This document shows, one piece after another, positions 13 to 25,054 of a DNA stretch of 64,000 nucleotides (within the stretch, counting starts at the first letter, position 1; each line of letters opens with the position of its first letter). Source of the stretch: Nitrospira sp. (GTDB lineage: Bacteria; Nitrospirota; Nitrospiria; Nitrospirales; Nitrospiraceae). Both the position numbers and the translations under genes were made by a program. Under the pieces are notes generated by a model. It searched no databases and was not told where the DNA came from. It saw nothing but the letters and a program-made list of their open reading frames with translations. The DNA lies in contig JAFEBM010000025.1 in NCBI GenBank assembly GCA_018242685.1, positions 62,001 to 126,000 of the forward strand, written 5' to 3'.

Positions 13-753
13 GTGGAGCGAAGGGCCGCTTCTCCAACAGATACGCAGCATGTCGTGAATCTATCAGGATACGTGTGGGCGGCTCGCCAACTTGGACCGC
101 TTGAACAGCGGTGTGTCCTGGATCTTTCATGCGGTACCGGCTATGGCAGCGACTATTTGGGTGCCTGTGCCGGTCGAATTGTGGGGATCGATTGCGTTCC
201 CGACGTCGTCGCCAAGAGTCGGGCGGACTATCCCCGATCGAATGTCACGTTTCTTGCGATGGACGCTTGTGCTCTGGCCTTTCGAGATGCGTCCTTTGAC
301 TGCATCGTCTCACAAGACACCATCGAACATATCCAGGATGACAGCCGCTTCGTATCCGAGGTGACCCGAGTGCTGAAACCCAACGGCATGCTCGTCATAT
401 TTACCCCGCACGGGAAGGGCCGTGGTATTTCTCCAACGGATCCGTATCATATTCGAGAATATACGCCGGACGAATTTAAGGCTCTGCTGCAGCCGCATTT
501 CTCAATTGTCCGCTGGTACGGCCGTCGTCAGGGGCATCGTCTCAAGGCGGTTGAACGCTCCATGGACACCCTGCGCAATTTGGACCCGATTGGTCTTCGT
601 AATTGCGTTCCACGACCTATTCGTCATTGGCTTGGAAGCCTGATGAGCCAAGCGCAAGGAGGGCCTGCCTTACATGAACTTGTCCCAGACGATATCGAGT
701 ATCGCGAAGGGGTCGCGGACGACACCAATTTGATCGGGGTTTGCACCAAATGA
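13..753 (+). CDS. Class I SAM-dependent methyltransferase
   Basis: A 246-residue Rossmann-fold methyltransferase. Motif I (VLDLSCGTGYG, about residues 35-45) binds the methyl donor; an acidic residue in GIDC (about 60) and the FDCIVSQDTIEHI stretch (about 98-110) are the usual later motifs. The acceptor is unknown; as first gene of a glycan operon it could methylate a sugar or a lipid-linked intermediate (inference). The start is GTG with GGGAG a few bases upstream, but the frame is open to the window edge, so a longer protein is possible. The stop overlaps the next gene as ATGA, suggesting translational coupling. Confidence 0.85.
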   Translation: MERRAASPTDTQHVVNLSGYVWAARQLGPLEQRCVLDLSCGTGYGSDYLGACAGRIVGIDCVPDVVAKSRADYPRSNVTFLAMDACALAFRDASFDCIVSQDTIEHIQDDSRFVSEVTRVLKPNGMLVIFTPHGKGRGISPTDPYHIREYTPDEFKALLQPHFSIVRWYGRRQGHRLKAVERSMDTLRNLDPIGLRNCVPRPIRHWLGSLMSQAQGGPALHELVPDDIEYREGVADDTNLIGVCTK

Positions 754-5231: not shown

Positions 5232-7163
5232 ATGTGCGGCATCTGTGGAGTCATAGGAGAGGATGACGGTTCGGCACTCCAACCGATGCTGCGGCGTCTG
5301 ACCCACCGAGGCCCTGACGAAGAAGGAACCTATCGTCAGCCCGGAGTCGCGCTTGGTGCGCGAAGACTTCGAGTGATTGATCCGGTCGGGGGACGGCAAC
5401 CGGTCCGCAATGAGAGGGGGACTGTTTGGGCCGTCATGAACGGCGAGATCTATAACTATCGAGAATTGCGTCAAGAGCTCGTGAACAGAGGACATCGACT
5501 TGAGACCCGCTGCGATACCGAAGTCTTGGTCCACCTGTACGAGGATGAAGGATTCGAGGCCTTTCGCCGATTGCGAGGAATGTTTGCGGTGGCACTGTGG
5601 GATCAAGAGCGCCGCTCTGCGTGGCTGGTTCGTGATCGCCTTGGTATCAAGCCGCTGTACTATGCAACACGGTTGAACGAAGACGGTAGGGGACCTTCCG
5701 TCGTATTTTCATCCGAGATTCCATCTCTGCTCGAAGCCTTGCCCGATTGGCGGATCCGGCCGGAAGCAGTCGCCGAGTACCTGACGCACTTGTATGTGCC
5801 AGGGCCCGGCACGATGATCGCCGGCGTACACCAATTGCGTCCGGGCGAAGCAATGGGCATATCGGACGGACGAATGAAGTTGTTGCGGTATTACCGCCCT
5901 GAAGAAGCGTTCGATGACCATGAACCGTGGACGATCCAAGAGGCCGGCAGAGAGGTGTTGCATACATTTGAAGAGACCGTGCAAGCCCATCTGGTCAGCG
6001 ATGTCCCCTTGGGGTTATTTCTCTCAGGCGGTATCGACTCGGCATCGTTGTTAGCCATGATGGCGAAAGAACAGAGTGGATCGGTCAAGACCTTCTCGAT
6101 CGGGTATGAGCATCCTTCCGACCAATCATTCAGCGAGCTGGACTCGGCGCGATTGTTGGCAGATCACTTCAAAACTGTTCATTCGGAGACGATTCTGAGG
6201 CCGGATGCGGTCACGCTGATCGAAAAAGTGGTGGAGGGCATGGGGGAGCCATTTGCAGATTCGTCAGCCATCCCCACCTATCTGGTTTCGGAGGTCGCGC
6301 GACAGACCGTCACGGTTGCGCTTTCGGGGATCGGCGGCGATGAGCTCTTCGGTGGGTACCCTCGCTATTTGGGCCTCCGTACTGCCGCGCAGTATCAACG
6401 AATTCCTCTTGTGCTGCGGGAGCGCATGGCTCAATGGAGCAGGCGTATCGGCGAACATGGACAGGCTCGCGACCAAGCGGCCCGCCTGAAACGATTTCTG
6501 AGCAATGGGCATCTGCCGCTTCCCGAGCAATATCGCCGTTGGACCACCTTTATTCCCTCCGAGTGGGACGGTACCCTCTGGGGACGCCGATTGGAAGAGA
6601 TGCTTCTCAACAATAAGCTGTTGGGACGGGCTGAGGTTTTGTTCGATCAGTGGCCGTCGTCTGACCCGGCGGAATGTGCCATGGGTGTCGACCTACAAAG
6701 TTATCTGCCCGACGATCTTCTGCGCATGGCTGATCGAATGAGCATGGTGCATTCGCTCGAGTTGCGTGTCCCGTTTTGCGATCATCAGCTCTTGGCCGCA
6801 GCCTTGCGAATTCCCTCCCGGCTACGTCTGACCGGTTGGCAATTGAAAGGGTTTATGCGCCGAATGTTGCGAGGCCTTCTGCCGGATCGAGTTCTTCGCG
6901 CGCCCAAGCAAGGGTTCATGGTGCCCATGGCTCGATGGCTTCGCGAGGATCTTCGCGAGATGGCGCACGATCTGTTGACGGATGACGTGATCAAGGACCG
7001 TGGGTATGTCAAACCGGCTTACGTGCGGTGGTTGTTGGAGCAACATGAGAGCGGCCGCCGAAACTTTTCAGATCAATTGTATGCGCTGATGGTTCTGGAG
7101 CTTTGGCATCGAGGTTTGCGCGCCGACCCTTCTGAACGGAGGGCACTGATGGCCACCTCATGA
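5232..7163 (+). CDS. asnB: Asparagine synthase (glutamine-hydrolysing)-like amidotransferase
   Basis: A 643-residue AsnB-family enzyme. The N-terminal class II glutaminase domain starts with the catalytic Cys directly after Met (MCGICGV), which fixes the start at ATG 5232. The synthetase domain carries the ATP-pyrophosphatase loop SGGIDS near residue 265 and the GIGGDELFGGYPRY block. It could make asparagine or, as often in exopolysaccharide/exosortase-type clusters, amidate a sugar uronic acid or other glycan carboxylate (inference from context). It overlaps the next gene by ATGA. Confidence 0.9.
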   Translation: MCGICGVIGEDDGSALQPMLRRLTHRGPDEEGTYRQPGVALGARRLRVIDPVGGRQPVRNERGTVWAVMNGEIYNYRELRQELVNRGHRLETRCDTEVLVHLYEDEGFEAFRRLRGMFAVALWDQERRSAWLVRDRLGIKPLYYATRLNEDGRGPSVVFSSEIPSLLEALPDWRIRPEAVAEYLTHLYVPGPGTMIAGVHQLRPGEAMGISDGRMKLLRYYRPEEAFDDHEPWTIQEAGREVLHTFEETVQAHLVSDVPLGLFLSGGIDSASLLAMMAKEQSGSVKTFSIGYEHPSDQSFSELDSARLLADHFKTVHSETILRPDAVTLIEKVVEGMGEPFADSSAIPTYLVSEVARQTVTVALSGIGGDELFGGYPRYLGLRTAAQYQRIPLVLRERMAQWSRRIGEHGQARDQAARLKRFLSNGHLPLPEQYRRWTTFIPSEWDGTLWGRRLEEMLLNNKLLGRAEVLFDQWPSSDPAECAMGVDLQSYLPDDLLRMADRMSMVHSLELRVPFCDHQLLAAALRIPSRLRLTGWQLKGFMRRMLRGLLPDRVLRAPKQGFMVPMARWLREDLREMAHDLLTDDVIKDRGYVKPAYVRWLLEQHESGRRNFSDQLYALMVLELWHRGLRADPSERRALMATS

Positions 7164-8382
7164 ATATTCTGCTGTTGGCTGAAGTGTCGGCGGAGCGAGT
7201 CCTCGGCGGAGCGGAACGGGTTCTTCGCAACCAAGCCCTCGGATTGGCGATGCTGGGACATCACGTGGAGCTGCTGACGCGGGCTCCTGAGCATGCATCG
7301 GAGGGCGTACTGGAGATGGCCGGAATTCGTGAATGGCGTTATTCGGTCAGTCGCAAACATGAAGCGGCGTTTCTCTGGTCTTCAGTACGCCGCTCGGTTG
7401 AGCGGTTTGATCGCTTATGTGCGACCGAACCGCTGGATGCCGTCATCATTCATCAGGGGCTGGCCGGACTCGGCCCGATTCTGGCTCGTCGTCAAGCGGT
7501 ATCACGATGGATTTATATGTGCCATTCTCTTGCTCATGAGGAGTATGAGACGAGGCAAGATCCGACTCGTTCATCCCTGGCAAACTTGCGTCGGCACGCC
7601 AATCTTCGGGCTAGGCGCTCCGTAGAATACGCGGTGATGTCCCGATGTCACCATGTGGCCGTCCTCAGTCAATTCATGCGTCAGCGGGTCGTAGGAACCC
7701 ACGATATTTCGGTCGACCGTTTGGCACTCATCCCGGGGGCGGTTGATCCTCATACCTTTGTGCCGTTCGAGGATCGGGGACTTGCAAAGACAGCACTCAA
7801 TCTTCCGAGCAATCGTACGATTCTCTTTACCGTTCGAAACCTTGTGCCAGGATGGGTCTGGACAATCTGCTGTGTGCGATCGAGATGCTGAACAGGGCAC
7901 AACACAAGCTGATGTTGGTGATCGGCGGGGAAGGACCGTTGCGTGAACAACTCCAAGCAGACATACAGCGGAGGAGACTCAGCGATGTCGTGCGTCTGAT
8001 CGGGTTTGTTCCCGAATCTCAGCTCGGTCACTACTACCAGGCCGCGGACCTTGTCCTGATGCCGAGTCTTCAGTTAGAGGGGTTCGGTCTGGTGATGGTC
8101 GAAGCCATGGCCTGCGGGACACCCGTGCTCGGGACGCCGGTCGGGGCGATTCCGGAGATCTTGAACCAAGTTGATCCCATCTTGGTCGCGGAAGGAGTCG
8201 ATGGTCCGTCGATTGGACGGGCGCTTGAACGGGTCTTGAGACGCTTACAAGAACCAGGCGAGGCGAGTCGTTTGGCAAAAAAGGGTCGCGCCCTGATTGA
8301 GCGTCGGTACAATTGGACACAACATTGCAACCAGTTGGTCGACTTATTGGATGGCCCAAAGCAGGTTCGGCTCGCGGCATAG
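7160..8382 (+). pseudogene. Family 4 glycosyltransferase broken by a one-base frameshift
   Basis: Two frames encode the two halves of one GT4 enzyme. The first (from ATG 7160, ATGA-coupled to asnB) carries the N-terminal domain to FTVRNLVP, then runs into a meaningless tail ending at 7891. The second starts at about 7852 (MGLDNLLCAIE) and carries the donor-binding domain with EGFGLVMVEAMA. Homologues read NLVPRMGLDN straight through. Adding one base between 7849 and 7852 (CCA GGATG to CCA xGG ATG) would restore a 407-residue protein, so a single-base deletion explains it. As written, no active enzyme is made unless ribosomes slip; a sequencing error is possible. Confidence 0.82.
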
Positions 8383-8399: not shown

Positions 8400-9590
8400 A
8401 TGATGGCTGCCCGAAAGGTCGTTCATATCATCACTCGGCTGGATCAGGGTGGATCTGCTCGAAACACCATGCTCACGGTGCTAGGGCATGACCGCACTCA
8501 GTTCGAGCCGCTTGTGGTTACCGGACAAGCGGATATGTGGAACGCGCAGGGGGGGCTCGCGGCAACAATGGAAAATCTTCGGCTCTTGGAGAAAGACTCG
8601 ATCCGTTACCACCTGGTTCCGTCGCTGGTTCGTCAGATCAGTCCTAAGGCTGATCTGTCGGCGTTGTGGAAACTGATTGTCCTGTTGCGACAGGAACGAC
8701 CCTACATCGTCCATACGCACACATCCAAAGCCGGAGTGCTGGGGAGGCTGGCCGCGTGGATCACGGGTGTTCCTAAGATTGTTCACACACCACACGGGCA
8801 CGTGTTCTATGGCCACTTCGGTTCGATCTCCTCCCGGATATTTGCACAGATCGAGCGCGCACTGGCATGGATCACTGATGAGTTGATCGCGCTGACATCG
8901 TCCGAAAAGGCCGAGCATCTTGAGCGAGCCATCGGGTGCGCGGATCGGTTTGCCGTCGTACCAAGCGGTATCGACATCGATCGTTTCAAGCAGGCTCGGA
9001 CGTCCGGAAAGGTGATGCCGGAGTGGTTCGATTGCCCGGCTGACGCGACCGTCATCGGCTCCGTCGGTTGGTTGACGGATATCAAGGGGCATCGATTTTT
9101 GGTCGACGCCGTCGCTCACTTGAAACAGGAGCATCCTCATCTGCACCTCGTCATTGTCGGCAGTGGGGATCAACATGAGGAGTTGCTGCGCAAGGCACGT
9201 AAAGCCGGAATCAGCCAGGCCGTGCATTTGGTAGGTCGTCGAGAAGATGTCGAACGTGCCCTGGCTGGGATGGATTGTTTCGTCTTGCCGTCCCTCAATG
9301 AGGGGATGGGGAGGGCCTTGGTTGAGGCGATGGCAGCGGGACTTCCGGTGATTGCCAGTCGAGTGGGGGGAGTTCCTGCTCTGATTGAGGATGAGAAAAA
9401 CGGCCTCCTTGTGCCGGCAGGAGACAGTCTCGCGCTGGCCGCCGCGTTGCGGCAGATATTGTCCGATCCTCTACGAGCCCGTACATTAGGACAGAACGCG
9501 ATGCAGAGCATCGGAACAGGCTTCGGAGTTCCCGCCATGGTTCGGGCCATTGAATCGATTTACAGGGAAGCAGCGGTGAGTTATGCGTAG
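8400..9590 (+). CDS. Family 4 glycosyltransferase
   Basis: A 396-residue GT-B enzyme with an N-terminal Glyco_transf_4 domain (IITRLDQGGSARNT, about residues 9-22; VHTHTSKAGVLGR about 103) and a C-terminal donor-binding domain with NEGMGRALVEAMAAG (about residue 300) and GGVPALIE. It resembles CapM/Pel-type transferases with a helical TPHGH segment. ATG 8400 or 8403 can start it; it follows the broken glycosyltransferase by 17 bp and overlaps the next gene by 8 bp. Sugar specificity unknown. Confidence 0.88.
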   Translation: MMAARKVVHIITRLDQGGSARNTMLTVLGHDRTQFEPLVVTGQADMWNAQGGLAATMENLRLLEKDSIRYHLVPSLVRQISPKADLSALWKLIVLLRQERPYIVHTHTSKAGVLGRLAAWITGVPKIVHTPHGHVFYGHFGSISSRIFAQIERALAWITDELIALTSSEKAEHLERAIGCADRFAVVPSGIDIDRFKQARTSGKVMPEWFDCPADATVIGSVGWLTDIKGHRFLVDAVAHLKQEHPHLHLVIVGSGDQHEELLRKARKAGISQAVHLVGRREDVERALAGMDCFVLPSLNEGMGRALVEAMAAGLPVIASRVGGVPALIEDEKNGLLVPAGDSLALAAALRQILSDPLRARTLGQNAMQSIGTGFGVPAMVRAIESIYREAAVSYA

Positions 9591-11190
9591 AGCCGGTCGT
9601 CAAATTGCGATCGTACTGTTTGCTGTCGCGATGGGTCTGGCGGAAATCGCAGCTGGTTCAGCTGCTGTACCAGTCACGGGACCCTACTCTCTGCGGGCTG
9701 CCGTTCATGTACACAGTACGATGAGTACAGGATCGCTCAGCTTGGAATCGTTGGCCGGAAGAGCCGAGGAGCAACAACTGGACGCCCTCATTCTCTCCGA
9801 AAACTTCACGTTGCGATATGACTATGGCCTCCCGCCGTTCGAAGGATTCCTCAAGTACCATGTCACATTTCCCTCCGTCATGGAGTACGGCGTCCAACGA
9901 TTTTTGGATGAGGTTCGCGCAGTACAGCGCCGTCACCCGAATCTGATTATTATTCCCGGGGTCGAGGTCGCCCCACATTACTACTGGACCGGTTCACTGC
10001 TGCACGGAGATCTCACGATGCACAACGCCCAGCGGAATCTCCTGGTCATCGGGCTGGAAAAGGCCGAGGATTATGAGCAACTTCCTTCTCGGGGAAATTC
10101 TTCCTCGTTCGTATGGGGCCGGCAGAGTGTGGTCAATGGACTCCCACTGGTGCTGTTGGCTCTCGTCGTCTGGCTGTGGAAACTTCAAGACTCGCGATGT
10201 CCCGATTGGAGAAGGCCTGCATTCGGTCTTCGGTCTGTTCTCGTCATCTTTCTCGTGATCACCTGTCTTGTTCTGATGATGAATGCCTGGCCGATGAAGA
10301 CGCCTGTTTACAGCGCTCATGACGGACAGGTCGGCTACCGGCCGTATCAAGCCTTGATTGATCGAGCGGTTGAACGGGGTGCGTTGGTGTTTTGGTCGAT
10401 GACAGAGGCTCGCGATTTCAGCCGCCATTCATTCGGTCCAATGGGAACTATCACGATTCAGACTGAACCTCACCCCGAAGCCTTGGTCTTGACACGAGGC
10501 TATACAGGGTTCGGCGGATTGTACCAAGACGTCAGGCGAGTGGTCGCGCCGGGTGGCGTATGGGATCAACTGCTGGGATCAAGATCAGTAGACGATCAGG
10601 ACAGGTTCCCCTCACTGATCGGAGAGGTGGCATTCCATGGAACCACAGATGCCGGAAAGGATTTGGATCGGGTGTATACGGTCATCCAGACATCCGAGCG
10701 AACCGCAGCCGGCATCATGGCTGCGCTCAAGCAAGGTCGAACCTATGCGGTGGCAAGGGGTGATCAGAATATTCTGCTTCGGCTCGACGAGTTTCGCCTG
10801 TTGAGCAACGGGCAGTCCGCTGGAATCGGGGAGACGCTTCGCGGAAGTGGGAACGGCGACATCATCGTCCGTGTCGGAGTGTCCGCCATCGATGGAAAGC
10901 CATATGCGGCAAGGCTTCGTGTCATTCGATCAGGTCGGGTCATCAGACTGATCGAAGGCCAGACGCCGTTGCGGATAGAACTCGCGGACCGTGAGGCACA
11001 GCGGGGAGAGCGGCTGAATTATCGAGTGGAAGTAGTCGGCAAGGGAGGGGAATTGCTCAGCAATCCGATCTATGTCTCACCGATGGACAGCGTAAACACA
11101 ACCGGACTTCAACGAATGACCCTTCCATCCGGAACAGTCGCTCAGAGCCGCGTCGCACAAGCTGAGAGTCGGGGGCAAGCATGCGCGTGA
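9583..11190 (+). CDS. PHP-like (metal-dependent phosphoesterase-like) membrane protein
   Basis: A 535-residue protein with a signal-like N-terminus (residues 1-28) and a PHP-type domain. The H-x-H motif is present (HVHST, about residues 41-45) and so is the PGVEV glutamate motif (about 125). The usual TDH motif reads LSENF, and the later IAHP motif reads FWSMTEA, so several metal ligands look missing. Two transmembrane helices (about residues 183-202 and 217-235) interrupt the domain. The C-terminal part (about 400-500) looks like beta-rich PHP-associated sequence. The catalytic parts should lie in the periplasm (inference). It may be a non-catalytic or altered hydrolase acting in glycan export or regulation. 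Confidence 0.65.
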   Translation: MRRAGRQIAIVLFAVAMGLAEIAAGSAAVPVTGPYSLRAAVHVHSTMSTGSLSLESLAGRAEEQQLDALILSENFTLRYDYGLPPFEGFLKYHVTFPSVMEYGVQRFLDEVRAVQRRHPNLIIIPGVEVAPHYYWTGSLLHGDLTMHNAQRNLLVIGLEKAEDYEQLPSRGNSSSFVWGRQSVVNGLPLVLLALVVWLWKLQDSRCPDWRRPAFGLRSVLVIFLVITCLVLMMNAWPMKTPVYSAHDGQVGYRPYQALIDRAVERGALVFWSMTEARDFSRHSFGPMGTITIQTEPHPEALVLTRGYTGFGGLYQDVRRVVAPGGVWDQLLGSRSVDDQDRFPSLIGEVAFHGTTDAGKDLDRVYTVIQTSERTAAGIMAALKQGRTYAVARGDQNILLRLDEFRLLSNGQSAGIGETLRGSGNGDIIVRVGVSAIDGKPYAARLRVIRSGRVIRLIEGQTPLRIELADREAQRGERLNYRVEVVGKGGELLSNPIYVSPMDSVNTTGLQRMTLPSGTVAQSRVAQAESRGQACA

Positions 11191-11888
11191 CGATTCACCA
11201 ACCGCAGTTCCTGCCATGGCTCGGCTATCTCGACAAAATCGATCAGACCGATGCGTTTATCATGCTGGATACCGTCCAGTTCAAGAAGAACGAATGGCAG
11301 AATCGTAACCGCATTCGGACCGCCAAGGGATGGCAGTGGTTGACGGTTCCGGTATTGCAACAGTTTGGTCAACGTATCGACGACGTTCTGATTAACCCAA
11401 CCACCGCATGGAAAACCCAGCACCTCCGAGCGCTGGATATCCATTATGCTCGGGCGCCATACCGCGACCGATATCTTTCTGAGTTGCGGGAACTGTACGC
11501 TCGACCCTGGTCCAGGCTGAATGATCTCAACAAGGCGACCGTGCAATGGCTGCTCGCGGCCTATGGAATCACCACACCGGTCCATAACGCCGCTGAATAC
11601 GCGGCTCGCGACGAGCCGACTGACCGGTTGATCGATCTCTGTCGGGCGGTCGGCGCTTCGCAGTATCTTGCCGGACCAGGTGCCGAACACTATATGGACA
11701 AGCCGCGATTCGAATCCTCAGGTGTGAAGATAAAAGTACAGGTGTTCCAGCACCCGATCTATCGTCAGATGTACGAGCCGTTTGAGTCGAATCTGTCCGC
11801 GCTTGATCTCTTATTGATGCAAGGCCCTAATGCCATCACGACACTGCGCCGGGCGCGATCGATGGATTTGTCAATGACCAGCGTCTAG
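11181..11888 (+). CDS. WbqC family protein
   Basis: A 235-residue WbqC-like protein. It is recognised by the N-terminal block VTIHQPQFLPWLGYLDK, DTVQFKKNEWQNRN, and the conserved LAGPGAEHYM and YEPFESNLSALDLL segments. Family members sit in O-antigen and exopolysaccharide clusters; some are thought to add acyl or amino-acid groups to sugars, but the reaction is not firmly established. ATG 11181 overlaps the end of the preceding gene by 10 bp. The next gene follows after 11 bp. Confidence 0.85.
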   Translation: MRVTIHQPQFLPWLGYLDKIDQTDAFIMLDTVQFKKNEWQNRNRIRTAKGWQWLTVPVLQQFGQRIDDVLINPTTAWKTQHLRALDIHYARAPYRDRYLSELRELYARPWSRLNDLNKATVQWLLAAYGITTPVHNAAEYAARDEPTDRLIDLCRAVGASQYLAGPGAEHYMDKPRFESSGVKIKVQVFQHPIYRQMYEPFESNLSALDLLLMQGPNAITTLRRARSMDLSMTSV

Positions 11889-11899
11889 GAGGATCAGCC

Positions 11900-12547
11900 A
11901 TGGGGAGCGCCAACGTCAATGAGCCGATGCGCATTCTTGCACTGGGAGCCCATCCTGACGATATCGAAGTCGGGTGTGGTGGAACATTGATCAAGTATGC
12001 GGAGAACGGCCATCGCATCTTTCTTATGGTGATGACACAAGGCGGGGCGGGCGGCAACGTGTCGGTTCGTAAAAGAGAACAAGAGCGGTCGGCCAAACTC
12101 CTTCAAGCCGAAGAAGTGTTCTGGGGAGGCTACCAGGACACGGAAGTTCCCCTTGGACGAGATCTGATCCAAACCGTCGAGGAGATCGTGCGGAAGATCG
12201 AGCCGCATTTTATCTTCGTGCACTACCATGATGATACCCATCAAGACCACCGGAATTTGGCGATGAGCACGATTACCGCCACGCGGTACACCAAAAATGT
12301 GCTGTTTTACGAAGGACCAACCACGCAGAACTTCGCGCCCACGGTTTTTGTGGATATTCAGCACGCGTTGGATCGAAAAATCCAGGCACTGGAAGCGCAT
12401 GCCTCCCAAGTGAAGAAAACCAATATCGAAGGGATCGGCATCGCGGATCTCGTGCGGTCGTCGGCGCATTTTCGCGGGATTCAGGGGCGGGTGAAAACCG
12501 CCGAAGGCTTTTTGCCCTTACGATTGTTCATCAATATCGGAGTATGA
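11900..12547 (+). CDS. PIG-L/LmbE family deacetylase
   Basis: A 215-residue zinc-dependent N-acetyl sugar deacetylase. The hallmark HPDD (residues 18-21) supplies zinc ligands and the catalytic aspartate, and HYHDDTHQDHRN (about residue 110) supplies a further zinc ligand and the catalytic His. It would deacetylate a GlcNAc-like sugar or its lipid-linked form. A strong ribosome binding site (AGGAGG, 11888-11893) precedes ATG 11900; an internal ATG at 11927 is a weaker alternative. It overlaps the aminotransferase gene by ATGA, which suggests a sequential role in amino-sugar formation. Confidence 0.88.
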   Translation: MGSANVNEPMRILALGAHPDDIEVGCGGTLIKYAENGHRIFLMVMTQGGAGGNVSVRKREQERSAKLLQAEEVFWGGYQDTEVPLGRDLIQTVEEIVRKIEPHFIFVHYHDDTHQDHRNLAMSTITATRYTKNVLFYEGPTTQNFAPTVFVDIQHALDRKIQALEAHASQVKKTNIEGIGIADLVRSSAHFRGIQGRVKTAEGFLPLRLFINIGV

Positions 12548-13623
12548 CGACGGTCGCCACGATGGTTCCTCACTCACGACCCTCTATCGAAACTGATGAG
12601 CTCCAGGCGGCGATCGAAGTATTGCGATCTCGCCGATTGGCCCAAGGGGGCATGGTCGAGCAATTTGAGCGTGGAATGGCAGCTTATTTGGGATCGGCCG
12701 GCGGAGTCGCCGTAAGCTCCGGGACAGCGGCGCTGGAAGTTGCGCTTCGAGCATTGGGAATCGGACCGGGCGATGAGGTTGTCCTTCCCAGTTATGTCTG
12801 TGCGGCTCCTTGGTTGGCCATCCAGCGTGTCGGAGCCATGCCGCGAGTAGTCGATATCGATCTGGAGACGTTTGCGATCGATCCGGAAGCAGCGCGACAG
12901 GCCCTCACATTGAGGACCAAGGCCATAATCGTCCCCCATCTGTTCGGCCTTCCCGCTGACCTGACGGCCCTTGAACGGTTGGGAGTGCCGATCATTGAAG
13001 ACTGTGCGCAGACACTGGGCGCCATGGAACGGGGAAGAGCGGTGGGATCAGTCGGTCTTTTAACGATTTGCTCCTTTTACGCGACAAAGCTGCTCTGTAC
13101 CGGTGAGGGAGGAATGGTCCTGTCCCGCGACGAAAGTGTGTTGGAACGAGTGCGCATGCTGAGGGAATACGACGAGGCGCCGTCCCTCCGCTCGGGAGCG
13201 ACCAATGTAAAGATGACCGATCTCCAAGCCGCGATCGGTTTGGTGCAACTGAGCCGCATGGCATGCTTCCTCGAACGGCGAAGCCGGCTTGCGGATGAGT
13301 ACCGAGCGGCGCTGGATGGCACTGGACTCGTGCAGCCGATCGTACCGGCCGGCCGTACGCATGTGTACTATCGGTTCGTGGTGCGCATGCCGGATCTGCA
13401 TAACCAGGTGAACGGCGTGAGTAGTGTGATCGCACGATTTGAAGACCGTGGGGTCCAATGCCGGAAACCGGTGTTCCGCTCGCTCCATCGCTATCTGGAT
13501 TTGGATGGATTTCCCGCTTCGGAAGAAGCGGAGCGTACTGCGCTCTCGATCCCGCTGTTCCCCTCGCTCACGGACGAAGACGTGGCCCAGGTGCATGTGG
13601 CGCTGCGTTCGGAGTGGTCATGA
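12544..13623 (+). CDS. DegT/DnrJ/EryC1/StrS family sugar aminotransferase
   Basis: A 359-residue PLP-dependent aminotransferase of the DegT family. GTAALEVALRALGIGPGDEV (about residues 60-79) is the cofactor phosphate and ring region, EDCAQ (about 156) holds the PLP-binding Asp, and SFYATKLL (about 177-184) holds the Schiff-base Lys. Such enzymes convert a keto-sugar nucleotide to an amino-sugar nucleotide. It overlaps the deacetylase (ATGA) and the downstream transferase (ATGA). Confidence 0.9.
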   Translation: MTTVATMVPHSRPSIETDELQAAIEVLRSRRLAQGGMVEQFERGMAAYLGSAGGVAVSSGTAALEVALRALGIGPGDEVVLPSYVCAAPWLAIQRVGAMPRVVDIDLETFAIDPEAARQALTLRTKAIIVPHLFGLPADLTALERLGVPIIEDCAQTLGAMERGRAVGSVGLLTICSFYATKLLCTGEGGMVLSRDESVLERVRMLREYDEAPSLRSGATNVKMTDLQAAIGLVQLSRMACFLERRSRLADEYRAALDGTGLVQPIVPAGRTHVYYRFVVRMPDLHNQVNGVSSVIARFEDRGVQCRKPVFRSLHRYLDLDGFPASEEAERTALSIPLFPSLTDEDVAQVHVALRSEWS

Positions 13624-14786
13624 AGACACTCGAAACGGAACTGACTCCTCCATTCTATGCCACGACGTGGCGCTGGATGACGCCGGTTGTGTCCGGAGTA
13701 GCACTTGGGGCCATTGCCCTGACCATTCCTCCTGTTCGAGAGATCTTTCAGCTTGAAGGTCTGCGATGGCTGCATGTCTTTCTCTTTGCGTTTCTCGGCA
13801 CCGGAGCCATGACCCCGCTGATGGTCCGGATCGGCCATCGATGGAACCTTGTCGATACACCTGCCGATCGAAAGATTCATATAACCCCAACCCCGCGGCT
13901 TGGTGGTCTTGCGCTGTATGGCGGATTTATCGGCTCCGTGCTGTTGAACTCGATCGTGCCAGATTGGATGGTTGCTGTGTTGGTGGCCGGCTCTCTATTG
14001 TTGATCATCGGCGTCATCGATGACATTCGAGAGCTGCCGGCCTGGGCAAAACTATGTGGACAATTGCTGGCGGCGGGTATTGTGATTGCCTCGGGCAAGA
14101 TCTTGACACTCTTTCCGGCCGGACTACTCGGAGATGCAGCCAATATTCTTCTGACCCTTTTTGGGATCGTTGGAATTACGAACGCCTTCAATTTCTTCGA
14201 CGGCATGGATGGATTGGCCGCCGGTCTTGCCGTGCTGATGGCAGGATTCATGGGCATCGTGGCATTTGAAACCGATCAGGCAGGGTTGGGCTGGCTGGCG
14301 ATCGCCATGATCGGAGCAGGCCTTGGCTTTTTGCCGTACAATTTTCGAGGGACAAAGCCAGCCGTCATTTTTCTGGGCGACGGCGGTTCGACGTTCATTG
14401 GATTCACGCTGGCCTGTCTGGCCGTGAAGGGCAACTGGGCGGATTCCAGTCCGATCGTGTCGTTCAGCAATCCGTTGCTGATCTTCGGAGTACTGATCTA
14501 TGACATGGTCCATATTACCGTGGAGCGTGTCATCACAGGAAAGGTCAAGTCCGTGAGAGAATGGCTGGACTATGTCGGAAAGGATCATCTCCATCATCGC
14601 CTGGAACGGGCCCTCGGTTCCCGACAGGCCAGTGTTGCCATGATTTTTCTCTTCACAATCTGCCTTGGGCTGGCGGCATTGGCGCTCCGGCATGCCGGTA
14701 CGATGGAGGCGGTGTTGCTCCTCATACAGGCTGGTTTGGTCGCCGCGATGATCACCGTACTGGAAATCAGCGGTCGCCGCAGATAG
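13620..14786 (+). CDS. WecA/TagO/MraY-type polyprenyl-phosphate sugar-1-phosphate transferase
   Basis: A 388-residue polytopic membrane enzyme. The cytosolic motifs are visible: DTPADRKIH near residue 80, [10 protein letters not shown] near 122, [15 protein letters not shown] near 186 and the C-terminal DHLHHR. It transfers a HexNAc-1-phosphate from the UDP-sugar to undecaprenyl phosphate and thus starts lipid-linked glycan synthesis. ATG 13620 is chosen because of the ATGA overlap with the aminotransferase; an upstream open frame lies inside that gene. It is probably the last gene of the glycan operon. Confidence 0.9.
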
Positions 14787-17355: not shown

Positions 17356-18942
17356 ATGCCGAAATCGAAGAGGGAACCAGCGAAGCCAAAGAACGGCGAA
17401 TCAGCAGGACTTGAGGCGAAGCTCTGGGCCGCCGCCGATGCGCTGCGGAACAACATGGACGCGGCGGAGTACAAGCATGTCGTGCTCGGCTTGATCTTTC
17501 TCAAGTACATCTCGGACGCATTCGAAGCAAAACACGCCGAGCTTGAGACGGAAAAGAAACATGGGGCCGATCCGGAAGATCCGGACGAATACAAGGCCGC
17601 GAGCATCTTCTGGGTGCCCAAAGAAGCGCGCTGGTCCCACCTCAAGGCGAGTGCTCCGCAACCGACCATCGGCACGATCGTCGATGACGCAATGAGCGCC
17701 ATCGAGCGGGATAACCCATCGCTCAAGGGAGTCCTCCCAAAAGACTATGCCAGGCCGGGCCTCGACAAGCAGCGGCTTGGTCAGCTCATAAATTTGGTGA
17801 GTGATATCGGTCTCGGCAGTCCGGCTGATCGAGCCAAAGATATTCTGGGTCGGGTTTACGAATACTTTCTTGCTCAATTCGCCAGTGCCGAAGGCAAGAA
17901 GGGCGGACAGTTCTATACGCCATCGCGAGTCGTCCGCGTGCTGGTCGAAATGCTGGCTCCATACAAGGGTCGTGTCTATGACCCCTGCTGCGGGTCCGGC
18001 GGCATGTTCGTGAGTAGCGAAAAATTTATCGAAGCCCACAGCGGCAAGCTCGGCGACATTTCTATCTATGGCCAGGAGTCGAACTATACCACCTGGCGAC
18101 TGGCGAAGATGAACCTCGCCATCCGTGGGATCGATGCGCAGATCGCGCATGGCGATACCTTTCACAACGACAAACACCCAGACCTCAAGGCCGACTATGT
18201 GCTGGCCAACCCGCCCTTCAACGATAGTGACTGGCGCGGTGAGCTGCTCAAGGACGACAAGCGCTGGGTCTATGGTACGCCGCCCGCAGGCAACGCCAAC
18301 TACGCCTGGGTACAGCACTTCATCCACCACCTGGCGCCCACCGGTGTTGCCGGTTTCGTGCTCGCCAATGGCTCGATGTCGTCGAACCAATCGGGCGAGG
18401 GCGAGATCCGCAAGGCCATCATTGAAGCCGACCTCGTGGACTGTATGGTGGCGCTACCGGGTCAATTGTTTTACTCGACACAGATTCCGGTCTGCCTGTG
18501 GTTTCTTGCACGCAACAAGAAGAATGGAAGATTCAGAGACCGGCGCGGCGAGACGCTCTTCATCGATGCGCGCAAGCTCGGCACCATGATCGACCGTGTG
18601 CACCGTGAGCTGACCGACGCCGATATCGCCAAGATCGCCGGGACGTATCATGCCTGGCGCGGCGACTCCTTCGATCGTCATTCCCGCGAAAGCGGGAATC
18701 CAGTTCCATATTCAGACATCCCTGGTTTCTGTAAAGCGGCAACGTTGGACGATATCCGCAAGCACGGCCATGTGCTCACGCCCGGCCGCTACGTCGGGGC
18801 GGAGGCCGCCAAGGAGGACAGCGAGCCGTTCGAGGAGAAGATGAAGCGGCTCACCGCGACGTTGCGTGAACAGCAGACCGAGGGCGCGAAGCTCGATGCT
18901 GCGATCGCCGTCAACCTAAAGGAGCTCGGGTATGGTGGGTGA
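17356..18942 (+). CDS. hsdM: Type I restriction-modification system, DNA methyltransferase subunit
   Basis: A 528-residue N6-adenine methyltransferase. The N-terminal helical HsdM domain (about residues 15-140) is followed by the catalytic domain with [15 protein letters not shown], motif [11 protein letters not shown] (about 209-218) and the catalytic NPPF (about 285). It modifies the host recognition site and is also part of the restriction complex. ATG 17356 follows GGAGA. Near residues 441-450 the sequence [10 protein letters not shown] is the translation of a dispersed palindromic repeat (18677-18703) inserted in frame. The stop lies 11 bp inside hsdS. Confidence 0.95.
18677..18703 (+). 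repeat. Palindromic dispersed repeat inside hsdM
   Basis: A perfect 8-bp inverted repeat, ATTCCCGC / GCGGGAAT, with a GAAA loop (18680-18699), flanked by GTC and CCAG. This is the core of a REP-like element known from many bacterial genomes, usually between genes. Here it lies within hsdM and keeps the frame, adding roughly [10 protein letters not shown] to the protein. Confidence 0.8.
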
Positions 18943-20254
18943 GTCTGCTGCTGTCCATATTCCTTCAACAGCTGTGCCCCTGCCGCCTGATTGGCGATGG
19001 GATCGACTGGACGAAGTGTGTGACGGCGTCTTTGATTGCCCGCACTCGACACCCCTTTTGACGGAGGGTGGCCCTTTTGTTGTTCGTTCACAAGACATGA
19101 GAACCGGCGTTTTCCGTTTGGAAAACGCTGGCCATGTATCGGAGGACATCTATCGAGAGCGAATCGTTCGGGCAGAGCCGAGAAACGGTGATCTCTTCTA
19201 CAGCCGTGAAGGGACTTATTTCGGAATTGCAGCTGAGGTACCAGCTGGCGTTCGTGTTTGTCTCGGGCAACGGATGGTTCTCCTCCGCCCCAAGGCATCT
19301 GAATGCAATCACCGTTTTCTTCGTTACTGGCTGAACTCCCCTGTAATGGCTTCCCATACGCAAGGCCATAGAGACGGCACAGTGGCGGAACGGCTAAATC
19401 TTCCGACGATCCGCCAACTGCCTGTGGTTGTTCCGCCGCTTCCTGAACAGCGCGCCATCGCCCACATTCTCGGCACGTTGGACGACAAGATTGAGCTGAA
19501 CCGGCGGATGAACGAGACCCTGGAGGCGATGGCGCGGGCGCTCTTCAAGTCGTGGTTCGTGGACTTTGACCCAGTCCGCGCCAAAGCCAAAGGCCACGAC
19601 CTCGGTCTGCCCAAGTCCCTTGCTGATCTGTTTCCGGATTCGTTCGAGGACTCGGAGTTGGGAGAAGTTCCGACGGGATGGAAGGTGGCAACTCTTGCCG
19701 ATTTCTCCCTATTGAATCCGGAAGTATGGTCGAAGGAAACACGGCCCGCTGTCATCAACTATGTCGATCTCTCTAATACAAAATGGGGACGAATTGATGC
19801 GGTCATTGCCTATTCGCAACAAGACGCGCCAAGTCGAGCTCAGCGCGTACTGAGGCAAAAAGATACCATCGTTGGCACCGTGCGGCCCGGCAATGGCTCC
19901 TATGCCTTTATCACTGAGGATGGACTGACGGGCAGTACAGGTTTCGTGGTCCTCCGTCCGCGTAGAGTCGATTTTGCGGAGTTCGTCTACTTGGCAGCGA
20001 CCGCAACGGAGAACATCGAAGCCCTATCCCACTTAGCAGACGGTGGTGCCTATCCTGCGGTTCGCTCGGAGATCGTCACCGCAACGCAAGTCGTCCGAGC
20101 CAATGACAAGATCCTCGCTGAATTCAGCAAGCGTGCTGCCTCGCTGCTTGCAAGGATGGCGCAAAACGAAAGCGAATCCTGCATCCTCGTCGCCATACGC
20201 GACACGCTGCTGCCCAAGCTCATCTCCGGCGAGCTGCGTGTGAGGGTGGGCTGA
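18932..20254 (+). CDS. hsdS: Type I restriction-modification system, specificity subunit
   Basis: A 440-residue HsdS. It has two target-recognition domains (about residues 10-150 and 240-390), each followed by a conserved helical region. The first helical region reads [24 protein letters not shown] and leads into [15 protein letters not shown] (about 205-220). The second domain starts at GEVPTGWKV (about 243). The protein defines the bipartite DNA site recognised by HsdM and HsdR. ATG 18932 overlaps the hsdM stop. The stop at 20254 overlaps, as TGATG, the start of an hsdR relic. Confidence 0.93.
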
Positions 20255-20358
20255 TGATGTTTTTTGATGGTAGGGGCGCCGCTCTCGGCTGGCTCGAAGC
20301 GCTGGGCTACTGCTGCTTAGGTCTGTGGAAACTAACGAATAGCCGACAGGGATATTAG
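20254..20358 (+). pseudogene. hsdR: Relic of an hsdR 5' end
   Basis: A 34-codon frame begins at ATG 20254, overlapping the hsdS stop as TGATG, exactly where hsdR normally starts in hsdMSR operons. Residues 9-19 (AALGWLEALGY) match the N-terminus of the intact HsdR downstream ([11 protein letters not shown], about residues 13-23); 28 of 33 bases agree by eye. After that the frame loses similarity and stops at TAG 20358. This is best read as the remaining start of an earlier hsdR, cut off by the incoming abiE-hsdR segment. Confidence 0.7.
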
Positions 20359-20393
20359 CGTTCAGCCGCTCAAAAGACTTGCATTCAGCCCTG

Positions 20394-20428
20394 TTGCTTT
20401 TGTTCGGTAATTGTCATTATTTACCGAA
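20394..20428 (+). promoter_or_regulatory. Promoter and inverted-repeat operator of the AbiE module
   Basis: An 8-bp perfect inverted repeat TTCGGTAA (20403-20410) / TTACCGAA (20421-20428) with a 10-bp spacer lies just upstream of the AbiEi gene. TTGCTT (20394-20399) and TATTTA (20418-20423), 18 bp apart, could be the -35 and -10. AbiEi-type antitoxins are known to bind inverted repeats at their own promoter, so negative autoregulation is likely (inference). This promoter would also drive hsdR. Confidence 0.5.
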
Positions 20429-20445
20429 ACTATGTAACATGGTGC

Positions 20446-21048
20446 ATGGTGAGATCCATGGAAGGTCGTCTGAGGAAGGTGCTTCGCAAGGTAGGCGCCG
20501 CGCGCACGCGCGAGCTGGAGCAGGCTGGGATCACCCGTACGCAGATCGTGCGGCTGGTGTCGGCGGGACAGCTGCAACGGATCGGGCGCGGGCTGTATGC
20601 GCCGGCGGACTATCAGGGGACTGAACACAGCGCACTCGTTGCCGTGGCCAAGCGGGCGCCGAACATCGTGTTCTGCCTGCTCACCGCGCTGCGCTTCCAC
20701 GAGATTACGACGCAATCGCCGTTCGAGGTGTGGATCGCCATCGCGAACAAGGATCATCCGCCCCGCCTCGACTATCCGCCGCTGCGGACCGTGCGCTTTT
20801 CCGAAGCCTCGCTGCGGTACGGTGTGGAAGTGAGAAAAGTGGAAGGTGTGGCGCTGCGGATTACCGGCCCGGCGAAGACGGTGGCGGATTGTTTCAAATT
20901 CCGGAACAAGGTCGGGCTCGACGTCGCGCTCGATGCGCTCAGGGAAGTGTTGCGCGAACGAAAGGCGACGGCCGACGAGCTGTGGCGCTGCGCGAAGGTG
21001 AACCGTGTTGCCAATGTGATGCGCCCGTACCTGGAGGCGACCGCGTGA
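20446..21048 (+). CDS. abiEi: AbiEi-family antitoxin / transcriptional regulator
   Basis: A 200-residue AbiEi-type antitoxin. The N-terminal winged helix (about residues 5-60) includes the typical TRELEQAGITRTQIVRLV and RIGRGLYAPAD segments. The C-terminal domain (about 65-190) has FCLLTALRFHEITTQSP and the KTVADCFKFRNKVG block. The N-terminal domain binds the operator and represses the cassette. ATG 20446 is used; ATG 20458 is also possible. It overlaps the toxin gene by GTGA. The cassette is visibly richer in G and C than the hsd genes around it. Confidence 0.9.
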   Translation: MVRSMEGRLRKVLRKVGAARTRELEQAGITRTQIVRLVSAGQLQRIGRGLYAPADYQGTEHSALVAVAKRAPNIVFCLLTALRFHEITTQSPFEVWIAIANKDHPPRLDYPPLRTVRFSEASLRYGVEVRKVEGVALRITGPAKTVADCFKFRNKVGLDVALDALREVLRERKATADELWRCAKVNRVANVMRPYLEATA

Positions 21049-21914
21049 AGGCAGACCTTGCCGCCTCCATCCATGCGCGGCTTTCCACCCGCGCGAAGGC
21101 GCGCGGCGAGATCTTCCAGGAGGTGCTTACCCGTTACGGCATCGAGCGCTTCCTCTACCGGCTTTCCTGCACCCCCGCACGCGATACACTGTGGCTCAAA
21201 GGCGCGCTGCTCTTCGACTTGTGGTTCGACGTACCCCATCGACCGACGCGCGATGCGGATTTCCTGGGGTTCAAACCGGCGGATCAAGACGCGTTGGAAT
21301 CCATGGTTCGCGAGGCGTGCGCGATCGACATGCCGGACGGCATGAGCTATGAGCCGGCTTCGATGCGGGTCCGCGAGATCCGGGAAGATGCGCGCTACGC
21401 AGGATTGCGGGTCACGCTGACGGGCAGGTTGAAGAATGCCCGCTGTCCGGTGCAGCTCGACGTTGGTTATGGCGATGCGGTCACACCGGGGCCGGAAGAG
21501 GCGCTGTATCCGACGCTGCTCGACGATCTTCCCGCACCGCGATTGAAGGTGTATCCGCGCGAGACGGTGATTGCAGAAAAGCTTGAGGCGATCGCAACTC
21601 TCGGCATAGCCAACAGCCGGATGAAAGATTATTTCGATCTGCTGGCGCTTGCGCGCGAAGGTGCCATCGACCCGCGCGTTCTGTCCGAGGCGATTCGCGC
21701 AACGTTCGAAAGGCGCCGCACGCCGTTACCGGCGAGCATGTTGTTGGGACTGGAGGATCAGTTCGCCCGTGACAAGGTCAAGCAGGCTCAGTGGAACGCA
21801 TTTCTCGCTAAGAATCGTCTGGAAGGACCGCCCCTGGAAGTCGTGGTGCGCGAAGTGCGCGCGTTTCTCCAGGCGCCGCTCAGCCAGGCATCGAAGCGAC
21901 CGGAGATGCGATGA
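21045..21914 (+). CDS. abiEii: AbiEii-family nucleotidyltransferase toxin
   Basis: A 289-residue AbiEii/AbiGii-type toxin of the DNA polymerase-beta-like nucleotidyltransferase fold. [11 protein letters not shown] (about residues 46-56) and TRDADFLG (about 64-71), with the metal-binding D-x-D, form the active site. [13 protein letters not shown] and [12 protein letters not shown] (about 175-205) form the conserved C-terminal motifs. Related toxins (AbiEii, MenT) transfer nucleotides, in MenT to tRNA. GTG 21045 is the start, set by the GTGA overlap; a longer upstream frame lies inside abiEi. It overlaps hsdR by ATGA. Confidence 0.9.
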
Positions 21915-24900
21915 CTGCATTCACCGAGTCCGTTGTCGAAGATGCAGCCCTCAGCTGGTTCGAAGTGCTGGGCTACCGGGTGCTGCACGGGCCGGACATC
22001 GCCGCGGGTGAACCCGCCGCGGAGCGCAGCGACCCGAACTACCGCGATGTGGTGCTGGAAGGCCGCCTGCGCCAGGCTCTGGTGCGCCTTAACTCCGACC
22101 TGCCGTCCGAGGCGCTGGAAGATGCCTATCGCAAGCTCACGCGGAATGATGCGACGACGTTGCTTGAGCGAAACCGTGTCGTTCATCGGATGATGGTGGA
22201 TGGCGTGAACGTCGAATATCGCAGGAGTGATGGCTCGATCGCCGGGGCACAAGCCCGGGTCATCGACTTCGACAGGTCAGTAAACAACGACTGGCTCGCG
22301 GTAGATCAGTTCACGGTATCGGAAGGACAGCACACCCGCCGACCGGACGTTGTACTGTTTGTGAACGGGCTGCCTCTCGCAGTCATTGAGCTGAAGAATC
22401 CCGCAGATGAGGACGCCACGATTTGGAGTGCCTACCAGCAGCTCCGAACCTACCAAGCACAGATTCCCTCCTTCTTCTCGACCAATGCGGCGCTGATCAT
22501 TTCTGACGGTGTCCAAGCTCGTATTGGGACTCTTGGCGCTGGAAAGGAATGGTTTAAGCCCTGGCGTACGATCGCAGGAGTTCAAGACGCGGCCCCCACG
22601 ATGTCTGAGCTACAAGTTGTCCTGGAAGGAGTCTTTGAAAAACGACGGTTTCTGGACCTTGTGCGCCATTTTATCGTCTTCGAGGACGAGGGCCATGGAA
22701 AGCTCGTTAAGAAGATGGCGGGCTACCATCAGTTCCATGCGGTGAATGTGGCTGTCGAGGAAACCTTGCGGGCATCTCGTCGTACGGTAGAACATCGAGC
22801 CGCCGACCTCTTGAGGCAATACCAGTCCGGGCATCAGCCGGGTGGTGAACCAGGCGATCGTCGGGTGGGTGTAGTGTGGCATACCCAGGGCTCCGGCAAG
22901 AGCCTCACGATGGCCTTCTATGCGGGGCGGGTCATTCTCCATCCGACGATGGCCAACCCAACCATCGTCGTGCTCACCGATCGCAATGACCTTGACGATC
23001 AACTTTTCGGCACCTTTGCTCGATGCTGCGACCTGCTCCGCCAGGACCCAGTTCAGGCGAACGACCGGGCTGACTTGCGCGCGAAGTTGACGGTGGCTTC
23101 TGGAGGCCTGGTATTTACCACCATTCAGAAGTTCTTTCCTGAAGAGAAAGGCGACCGGCATCCGGTACTGTCTGATCGCCGCAACATCGTCGTGATCGCG
23201 GATGAAGCCCATCGGAGCCAGTATGACTTTCTCGACGGCTTTGCACGGCATATGCGGGATGCGTTGCCGAACGCCTCGTTCATTGGTTTCACCGGAACAC
23301 CGATCGAAAAGACCGATGCCAACACGCGAGCGGTCTTTGGCGACTACATCAGCATTTATGACATCCAGCGGGCGGTCATCGATAAGGCGACCGTTCCCAT
23401 CTACTACGAGAGCCGGCTCGCGAAGCTTGAGCTGAAAGCGTCCGAGCGGCCAAAGATCGACCCGAGGTTTGAAGAGGCAACCGAGGGGGAGGAAGTCGAA
23501 CGCAAGGAGAAGCTCAAGACCAAGTGGGCGCAGCTGGAAGCTGTGGTGGGGTCGGAGAATCGGATCACATTGATTGCTCGAGACCTCGTCGATCACTTCG
23601 AAGATCGCCTCGCAGCGATGGATGGCAAGGCGATGGTGGTGTGCATGAGCCGACGAATCTGCGTGGAGCTGTACCGAGAGATTGCCGCCCTGCGCCCGCA
23701 ATGGCATGCCGATGCGGACGACCAGGGCTCGATGAAGGTGATCATGACCGGCTCGGCGTCCGATCCTATTGAATGGCAAGGCCATATCCGAAACAAGAAA
23801 CGTCGAGAGGACATGGCGCTGCGGTTCCGTGCTCCCAAGGACCAGTTCAGACTCGTGATCGTTCGTGACATGTGGCTGACTGGGTTTGACGCGCCGAGTC
23901 TCCATACGATGTACCTCGATAAGCCGATGCGCGGGCATGGGCTGATGCAGACCATTGCGCGTGTGAACCACGTGTTCACAGATAAGCCTGGTGGATTGGT
24001 CGTGGACTACCTCGGCCTGGCCGATGAACTGAAACAGGCGCTTGCGACCTACACAGAAAGCGGTGGGACGGGCAAGACGGCGATTGACCAAGCCGAGGCT
24101 GTCGCGGTGATGCTGGAGAAGTATGAAATCTGCCGAGGTCTGTTCCACCGATTTGACTGGTCACTCTGGATGACCGGCAAACCGCAAGAGCGACTTTCGG
24201 TGTTGCCTGCTGCACAGGAGCATATTCTGAAGCAGCCAGACGGAAAAACGCGGCTCCTCCGTGCCGTGACGGAGCTTTCACAGGCTTTTGCGCTGGCTGT
24301 GCCGCATGAGGAGACCTTCCGGATTCGAGATGATGTGGGCTTTTTTCAAGCCGTTCGTGCGGTGCTGGCGAAGAGCACGCCGGGCGAGCAGAAGACCGAT
24401 GAAGAACTCGACCATGCCATTCGCCAGATCATTTCAAAGGCCGTGGTGTCCGACAAGATCGTGGATATCTTCGCTGCTGCCGGGCTCAAGAAGCCGGATC
24501 TCTCGATCCTCTCTGATGAGTTTCTCGCCGAAGTGCGAGAGATGCCGCAGAAGAATCTTGCTGTCGAACTGTTGCGGAAGCTGCTGAGCGGCGAGATCAA
24601 GGTACGCTTGCGCAGAAATGTGGTGCAGGCGAAGTCGTTTGCAGAGTTGTTGGAGCAGGCGGTGAGGAAGTACCAGAACCGGGCGATTGAGGCAGCACAG
24701 GTCATCGAGGAAATGATCGGCTTGGCTAAGGACATGCGCCGAGCCCATGAGCGAGGGGAGCAGCTTGGTCTGACCGAGGAAGAGATGGCGTTCTATGATG
24801 CGCTCGAAACCAACGACAGCGCGGTGAAGGTGCTCGGAGACGAGACGTTACGAACGATCGCTCGTGAGGTAGCGGAGGCTGTTCGCAAGAATGTCACGAT

Positions 24901-25054
24901 CGACTGGACCGTTCGGGAGAACGTGCGAGCCCAGCTCCGAGTGATTGTAAAGCGGATTCTCAGGAAGTACGGCTATCCGCCGGATAAACAAGAAAAGGCG
25001 ACGCAGACGGTGCTAGAGCAAGCCGAAGTTCTTTGCAGTGAGTGGGTCGGATAA
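21911..25054 (+). CDS. hsdR: Type I restriction-modification system, restriction/translocase subunit
   Basis: A 1047-residue HsdR. The N-terminal nuclease domain has the PD-(D/E)xK elements PDVVLFVNG and VIELK (about residues 147-162). The motor domain has Walker A TQGSGKS (about 325-331), DEAH (about 431-434), the TGTPI motif and the late helicase motif [12 protein letters not shown]. The C-terminal part (about 750-1047) is the helical subunit-assembly region. It translocates and cuts foreign DNA as part of the HsdR2M2S complex. It is separated from hsdS by the AbiE cassette and overlaps abiEii by ATGA, so its translation is coupled to the toxin gene. Confidence 0.95.

Follow-up and report, generated by a model that had tools for sequence, protein, structure and literature searches.

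The PHP-like gene and its locus

The window analyzed here, a stretch of 64,000 nucleotides of Nitrospira sp. (GenBank assembly GCA_018242685.1, contig JAFEBM010000025.1, positions 62,001 to 126,000 of the forward strand), sits on a 127.8 kb contig of a genome that totals 4.2 Mb. At 9583 to 11190 on the plus strand of the window, a scan for open reading frames (ORFs) finds a frame encoding 535 residues, which an initial annotation described as a PHP-like domain interrupted by two membrane helices and lacking several metal ligands. Analysis of this gene and its relatives points to a conserved PHP protein that is probably a working part of a specific surface-sugar pathway, with an unusual active site. 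A search of the Nitrospira genome of the window with the protein finds no second match.

The gene had also been placed in a glycan operon, and the neighboring genes bear this out, with GT4, WbqC, PIG-L, DegT, and WecA proteins encoded alongside (Table 1). The PHP ORF overlaps the GT4 gene by 8 bases at its start and the WbqC gene by 10 bases at its end, an arrangement that suggests translational coupling.

Table 1. Features of the PHP-like ORF and of the adjoining cassette genes, in window coordinates; rows refer to the 59-row alignment, and types A and B to the ligand patterns, described in the text
Feature	Coordinates	Strand	Basis
Membrane-split PHP-fold protein, 535 residues	9583..11190	+	ORF; weak PHP and CehA/McbA matches; model; fold match
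N-terminal hydrophobic signal peptide or anchor, residues 1-27 (end approximate)	9583..9663	+	Model helix 2-25; dN/dS about 0.46 over residues 1-34
H-x-H, H42 and H44, PHP ligand positions 1 and 2, kept	9706..9714	+	Alignment
N74 where the TDH histidine is expected (position 4)	9802..9804	+	Alignment
E128 of GVE, ligand position 5, invariant in 59/59 rows	9964..9966	+	Alignment
N152 where the motif-III histidine is expected (position 6); H in the 3 type B relatives	10036..10038	+	Alignment
Transmembrane helix 1, residues 180-200	10120..10182	+	Model, hydropathy
Short basic loop, predicted cytoplasmic, residues 201-213	10183..10221	+	K/R exceeds D/E in 59/59 rows
Transmembrane helix 2, residues 214-233	10222..10281	+	Model, hydropathy
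WSMTEARD, residues 271-278, M273 where the AHP histidine is expected (position 7)	10393..10416	+	Alignment
EVAFH, residues 348-352: E348 invariant, A350 where Asp is expected (position 8), H352 at position 9	10624..10638	+	
C-terminal beta-sandwich, residues 398-500	10774..11082	+	Model; Ig-like matches, Z up to 8.9 (VIA)
Unconstrained C-terminal tail, residues 501-535	11083..11187	+	pLDDT <50 from 503; dN/dS about 1.05
GT4 glycosyltransferase	8400..9590	+	Family matches
WbqC family protein	11181..11888	+	Model resembles BshC
PIG-L deacetylase	11900..12547	+	Best NCBIfam match BshB1, under cut-off
DegT-family sugar aminotransferase	12544..13623	+	Best NCBIfam match PseC, under cut-off
WecA-like phosphoglycosyltransferase, start uncertain	13458..14786	+	Family matches

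Fold model, metal ligands, and membrane hairpin

Similarity of the window protein to PHP proteins is real but weak. The Pfam PHP profile (PF02811) scores 22.9 bits (E 1.2e-4) over residues 41-130, below its cut-off of 26.4; among five relatives tested, L043 (38% identity) scores 29.5, above the cut-off, and L081, L082, L083, and L095 all score below it. The best NCBIfam match is the CehA/McbA family (NF038032), whose cut-off of 80 bits is not reached by the score of 44.5; the best stretch (351-498) runs from the last part of the barrel into the C-terminal domain. The highest score for this family among the same five relatives, 63.7 for L083, is also below 80. A single-sequence search found no solved relative of the window protein, a profile search against solved chains gave PHP matches that are themselves weak, and L082 alone matched only unrelated chains, also weakly.

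The fold was modeled with AlphaFold2 from 25 sequences, giving a mean predicted local distance difference test (pLDDT) of 68.7 and a predicted template modeling (pTM) score of 0.68, with pLDDT below 50 in stretches that include 45-50, 83-91, 275-289, and 353-358. Foldseek places PHP proteins at the top of its matches to the model (3e38 at 1e-7), and VIA-align pairs the model with 2anu_A at Z 21.1 (root-mean-square deviation (rmsd) 2.6, 213 residues aligned, model range 34..396), with 3e38_A at Z 18.4 (rmsd 2.9, 213 aligned, range 33..435), and, as third match, with PsfC, 7rty_A, at Z 14.7 (rmsd 3.1, 205 aligned). Because the match spans both halves of the split domain, the halves make one PHP barrel in the model rather than an unrelated fold, and the modeled hairpin enters after the fourth barrel strand, by our count.

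The closest fold, TM0559 of Thermotoga maritima (PDB 2anu), has 213 of its 224 residues aligned and shares the HxH and GVE motifs, but differs in having the SDG, TDH, and AHP residues at the aligned stretches; since the barrel takes up nearly all of its chain, a hairpin insert is not expected there. BVU_3505 (PDB 3e38) resembles the window protein in joining a PHP barrel to a C-terminal domain, at 22% identity, yet in weak local alignments it has SDG, TEH, NHP, and DxH (GTSDIH) where the window protein has T49, N74, M273, and A350. Members of the CehA/McbA family hydrolyze esters or carbamates, and the window protein is set apart from them by its replaced ligands, its hairpin, and its glycan operon setting. 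Most PHP proteins known so far are soluble and act as phosphoesterases that use three metals (PMC3666897, PMC5636811).

In the PHP consensus, three metals are bound by nine residues, namely H, H, D/H, H, E, H, C/H, D/N, and H (PMC3666897). In the window protein, alignments place H42, H44, T49, N74, E128, N152, M273, A350, and H352 at these positions, so that four ligands are kept (H42, H44, E128, and H352) and five are replaced; measured against an active trinuclear PHP phosphoesterase, the predicted site thus falls five ligands short. The H-x-H and GVE motifs named in the initial annotation are H42/H44 and E128, and the TDH and IAHP motifs that it considered replaced are indeed SEN (N74) and SMT (M273). 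Beyond these, the aspartate of SDG has become T49, the motif-III histidine N152, and the aspartate of DxH A350; the histidine of this last motif is retained, as H352. The mapping draws on alignments to 2anu, 3e38, the distant SDFH-keeping PHP protein L104, and the type B relatives described below: positions 1 to 5 come from the best-scoring stretch (2anu, 20.6 bits), positions 7 to 9 from stretches that are weak alone, scoring -3.4 to 6.3 bits with solved chains, and that depend on L104 and type B as well, and position 6 from type B alone.

In the PHP domain of DnaE1, E73 binds two zincs and D226 is a proposed water activator (PMC5636811). By our mapping these residues would correspond to positions 5 and 8, E128 and A350 of the window protein, position 8 being an aspartate in type B. 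The retained residues H42, H44, and E128 may together make up one 2-His-1-carboxylate site, and the conserved residues E348, H147, E275, and D278 might act as stand-in ligands. If they did, the protein could be an ordinary PHP phosphoesterase with a complete metal center built from other residues and hard to spot by sequence, a view also favored by the retention of positions 5, 6, 7, and 8 in the type B relatives. This is nevertheless improbable, given the non-ligand residues at positions 3, 4, 7, and 8 by comparison with solved PHP proteins (the stretches for 7 and 8 being weak alone, at -3.4 to 6.3 bits) and at position 6 by comparison with type B.

Conservation was assessed in an alignment of 59 full-length rows, comprising 58 distinct sequences and a duplicate of the window protein (entered as Q and L001). 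Sequences containing X or covering too little of the protein were excluded, and the ORFs were trimmed N-terminally, so that their N-terminal hydropathy was not used. Two ligand patterns are apparent. Type A, in 56 of the 59 rows, allows T/S at residue 49, M/L at 273, and A/V/G at 350, and type B, in the other three rows, which are distant relatives (L082, L083, and L102), reads H, D/Q, variable, H/K, E, H, H, D, gap over the nine positions. H42, E128, and E348 are invariant in every row, and H44, H147, E275, D278, H352, N74, and N152 are invariant in all 55 distinct type A rows, the window protein included. Across these 55 rows 57 of 464 columns are invariant, with pairwise identity down to 36%, and persistence of the residue pattern at that divergence makes chance an unlikely explanation. 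Over all 59 rows, 32 positions are invariant, and H42 and E128 are the only canonical PHP ligands among them; others include Y81, W135, Q256, W271 (of the WSMTEARD stretch), T294, T304, W327, and D328. Type B forms one side of a branch with support of 100/100, in a tree that carries warnings on long branches and letter make-up. A second, contig-cut relative, L117 (G472), shows a third ligand pattern, in which both HxH histidines are lost and SDG, TDH, the GVE glutamate, the motif-III histidine, and an SHP histidine are kept.

The ratio of nonsynonymous to synonymous substitution rates (dN/dS) was computed over 10 pairs with the window, with medians used for genes and ratios of medians for segments. 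It is lowest in the first PHP half (0.085) and the second (0.160), followed by the hairpin (0.268), the sandwich (0.273), the signal region (residues 1-34, 0.459), and the tail (1.054). The PHP halves are thus under purifying selection, which, together with the fixation of the replaced positions, points to a remodeled site rather than a decaying one. One could suppose that the PHP similarity or the hairpin is an annotation artefact, a frameshift, or the mark of a dying gene, because the Pfam score is below cut-off, nearby genes of the window are split by apparent frameshifts, and the PHP gene itself is broken in two genomes, but since dozens of genomes have the frame open at a matching length, dN/dS is well below 1, and the fold match reaches Z 21.1, this explanation is extremely improbable.

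A different possibility is that the protein is a non-catalytic scaffold of PHP fold, a membrane-anchored periplasmic protein that binds or docks a lipid-linked glycan or other proteins of the pathway, with the shape kept as in the PHP domain of Escherichia coli DNA polymerase III. That domain also has five of nine ligands replaced and is conserved and structurally important (PMC3666897). It has the same fold as the window protein (PDB 2hnh, VIA Z 10.2 to the model), but it is part of a DNA polymerase, and its replaced positions are 1, 4, 5, 7, and 9 instead of 3, 4, 6, 7, and 8. A scaffold would fit the loss of five of nine ligands, including the one mapped to the water-activating aspartate of DnaE1 (PMC3666897 and PMC5636811), and the scarcity of canonical ligands among the fully invariant positions; since types A and B keep different ligand sets, a function common to both may need neither. 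What a scaffold leaves less well explained is that H42, E128, and E348 are the same in all 59 rows, as are H44 and H352 in the 55 of type A, and that the lost ligand positions went to fixed residues with no drift. We consider the scaffold a substantial possibility, while doubting it somewhat.

The two membrane helices that had been placed in the middle of the domain recur in the model (Table 1), and the topology was read from hydropathy, loop charge, and model helices. Over the 59 rows the 19-residue hydropathy of the two hairpin segments has medians of 1.54 and 2.14; in two control regions the medians are 0.96 and 0.88 and the maxima 1.33 and 1.15. Both segments reach at least 1.3 in 47 of the 59 rows, and the lowest value, 1.09 in L081, lies within the control range. 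Lysine and arginine outnumber aspartate and glutamate in the hairpin loop of every row, and the model begins with a hydrophobic helix at residues 2-25. An N-terminal helix, a hydrophobic hairpin, and a basic loop together predict that both PHP halves lie outside and the loop inside, and the halves probably face the periplasm.

The glycan cassette and its distribution

Homologues of the PHP gene occur in other glycan clusters, a question raised by the initial annotation: 36 of 44 loci share the order GT4-PHP-WbqC-PIG-L-DegT-WecA, in a count that named each ORF by its best window gene, considered no other ORFs, and took near-copies separately. Among the eight loci without the full order, five (L006, L018, L022, L023, and L028) are cut at contig ends, L017 is broken inside WbqC, and in L081 and L082 the arrangement truly differs. 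Not among the 44 are L084, L085, and L086, which have no such PHP gene. Of the type B loci, L083 and L132 have the six-gene order and L082 has PHP-WbqC-PIG-L-WecA.

Co-occurrence was surveyed in 395 genomes, all of Nitrospirota. At E 1e-3 the PHP protein has matches in 65 of them, of which 47 full or near-full ones were counted and 18 weak partial ones dropped, and WbqC of any kind is found at E 1e-20 in 87. The same 47 genomes carry the PHP protein and a WbqC of at least 47% identity, a cut picked after the list was seen. In 45 of the 47 the WbqC gene is adjacent to and downstream of PHP; the two others are G032, which has a contig break, and G381, in which the cluster is split, with WbqC-PIG-L-DegT-WecA on another contig. 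One further genome, G041, passes the WbqC cut with no PHP match, by an 80-residue fragment of 48% identity that lies at most 5 bases from a contig end, with the PHP side beyond that end. The next WbqC matches, at 44%, are in G397, whose contig starts 141 bases before WbqC, and in G343, where there is no PHP gene. Among 59 near relatives PHP is present in 20 (a count that includes the partial matches G046, G049, G019, and G047) and WbqC in 21, the difference again being due to G041.

In genomes G343 and G358 the order is GT4-WbqC-PIG-L-WecA: the stretch contains no match to PHP, and the cassette itself has no DegT gene, although a weaker DegT match lies upstream of it. It therefore seems that the PHP gene was added to a core pathway. 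The joint absence of PHP and of an in-cassette DegT gene (loci L134 and L137) hints at a link between the two. The genomes with a broken PHP gene are G270 and G019; in G270 (L100 4167-5602) it lies in three pieces, the hairpin region being short and the C-terminal part in another frame.

Upstream of the window on the same contig are genes for SLBB export, Wzz/kinase, O-antigen-ligase-like (Wzy_C), and Wzx-like flippase proteins, which makes the cassette part of a surface polysaccharide cluster. Relatives of the PHP protein were also sought in mobile elements: none is encoded in 13 pattern stretches of viral contigs, a plasmid search with the type B relative L083 gave no match, and a viral structure library returned one PHP-named phage protein at 5.7e-9, taken as sharing the fold only. 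No title or abstract found names the window protein or the cassette, most subscription journals lying outside the search.

The neighboring enzymes resemble those of bacillithiol synthesis. The best NCBIfam match of PIG-L is BshB1 (110.2 bits, cut-off 182.5), and GT4 matches the XrtA-system family TIGR03088 best (217.6, cut-off 409.05) and BshA at 113.1 (cut-off 273.7). A low-confidence model of WbqC (pLDDT 60.6) aligns by VIA with BshC (4wbd) at Z 10.0 (rmsd 3.8, 205 of 235 residues), the next row standing at Z 6.8 and class I aminoacyl-tRNA synthetases coming next; by Foldseek BshC is a weak match (E 0.046), with none at 0.001, and a profile search of WbqC against the PDB gave no match. BshC makes the last amide of bacillithiol, so that a BshC-like WbqC model beside PIG-L and GT4 hints at bacillithiol-type amide chemistry, in which WbqC may make an amide on a deacetylated amino sugar. 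The bacillithiol pathway as such was set aside: the Nitrospira genome of the window has no match to the BshC family (PF10079), and the cassette includes WecA and a membrane protein, so that bacillithiol is kept only as a likeness of logic. That genome has one WbqC copy, and one paper on an exopolysaccharide locus reportedly mentions WbqC.

Elsewhere in the window, a second GT4 gene at 7160-8382 is split into overlapping ORFs (7160-7891 and 7852-8382); both pieces match one ORF in L002, L003, L009, and L010, making a frameshift or assembly error likely. A PMT_2-type membrane glycosyltransferase gene at 741-2078 also seems split (741-1436 and 1473-2078), with both parts matching one ORF in L009. 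The stretch 17356-25054 presumably encodes a type I restriction-modification-like system, HsdM, HsdS, and HsdR, with an AbiEi/AbiEii-like pair between.

Possible roles of the PHP protein

Given the neighboring genes and the predicted topology, action on lipid-linked sugars may be proposed, and the reading that we favor, though in our judgment it could go either way, is that of a hydrolase acting on a lipid-linked amino-sugar glycan, a membrane-anchored periplasmic PHP protein of CehA/McbA-like type with a rebuilt metal site. Such an inner-membrane protein would expose its PHP barrel and C-terminal beta-sandwich to the periplasm, with the two-helix hairpin holding the barrel at the membrane surface. 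H42, H44, and E128, if they lie close together and bind metal, would form a single 2-His-1-carboxylate site, perhaps with help from E348 and H352, in place of the three-metal center, and catalysis there would hydrolyze the lipid-linked amino-sugar glycan that the adjacent GT4, WbqC, PIG-L, DegT, and WecA would produce, after it is flipped. The initial annotation had offered a membrane-anchored pseudo-enzyme or a new hydrolase working on lipid-linked sugars outside the cytoplasm; a membrane-anchored, ligand-poor PHP protein predicted outside the cytoplasm stands, and a hydrolase seems somewhat likelier than a pseudo-enzyme.

Several observations weigh against a hydrolase. By our mapping, A350 takes the place of D226, the aspartate proposed to be the water activator of DnaE1 (PMC5636811), and the E. 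coli polymerase III domain, which likewise lacks five of the nine ligands, shows no nuclease activity (PMC3666897). The confidence of the model is moderate (mean pLDDT 68.7), with several loops near the site below 50. The dN/dS of the PHP gene (0.205) tops that of all six cassette genes, the five neighbors ranging from 0.041 to 0.139, which makes it the least constrained of them. Finally, the PHP-less cassettes of two genomes indicate that the core pathway can do without the protein.

A more specific and rather unlikely proposal is that the protein is a PHP barrel cut down from a three-metal phosphoesterase to a periplasmic mononuclear 2-His-1-carboxylate enzyme, anchored by a membrane hairpin that interrupts its catalytic domain, and that it carries out a new hydrolysis or transfer on an undecaprenyl-linked aminoacylated amino sugar, supplied by the bacillithiol-like trio of BshA-like GT4, BshB-like PIG-L, and BshC-like WbqC.

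For the family, a conserved protein that threads the membrane in mid-domain and has undergone a coordinated ligand switch would show a metalloenzyme barrel rebuilt for the membrane surface. Within Nitrospira and its relatives the PHP gene is a marker of one particular glycan cassette of six genes, and from the likeness of the WbqC model to BshC a function can be proposed for the WbqC family that is open to test.

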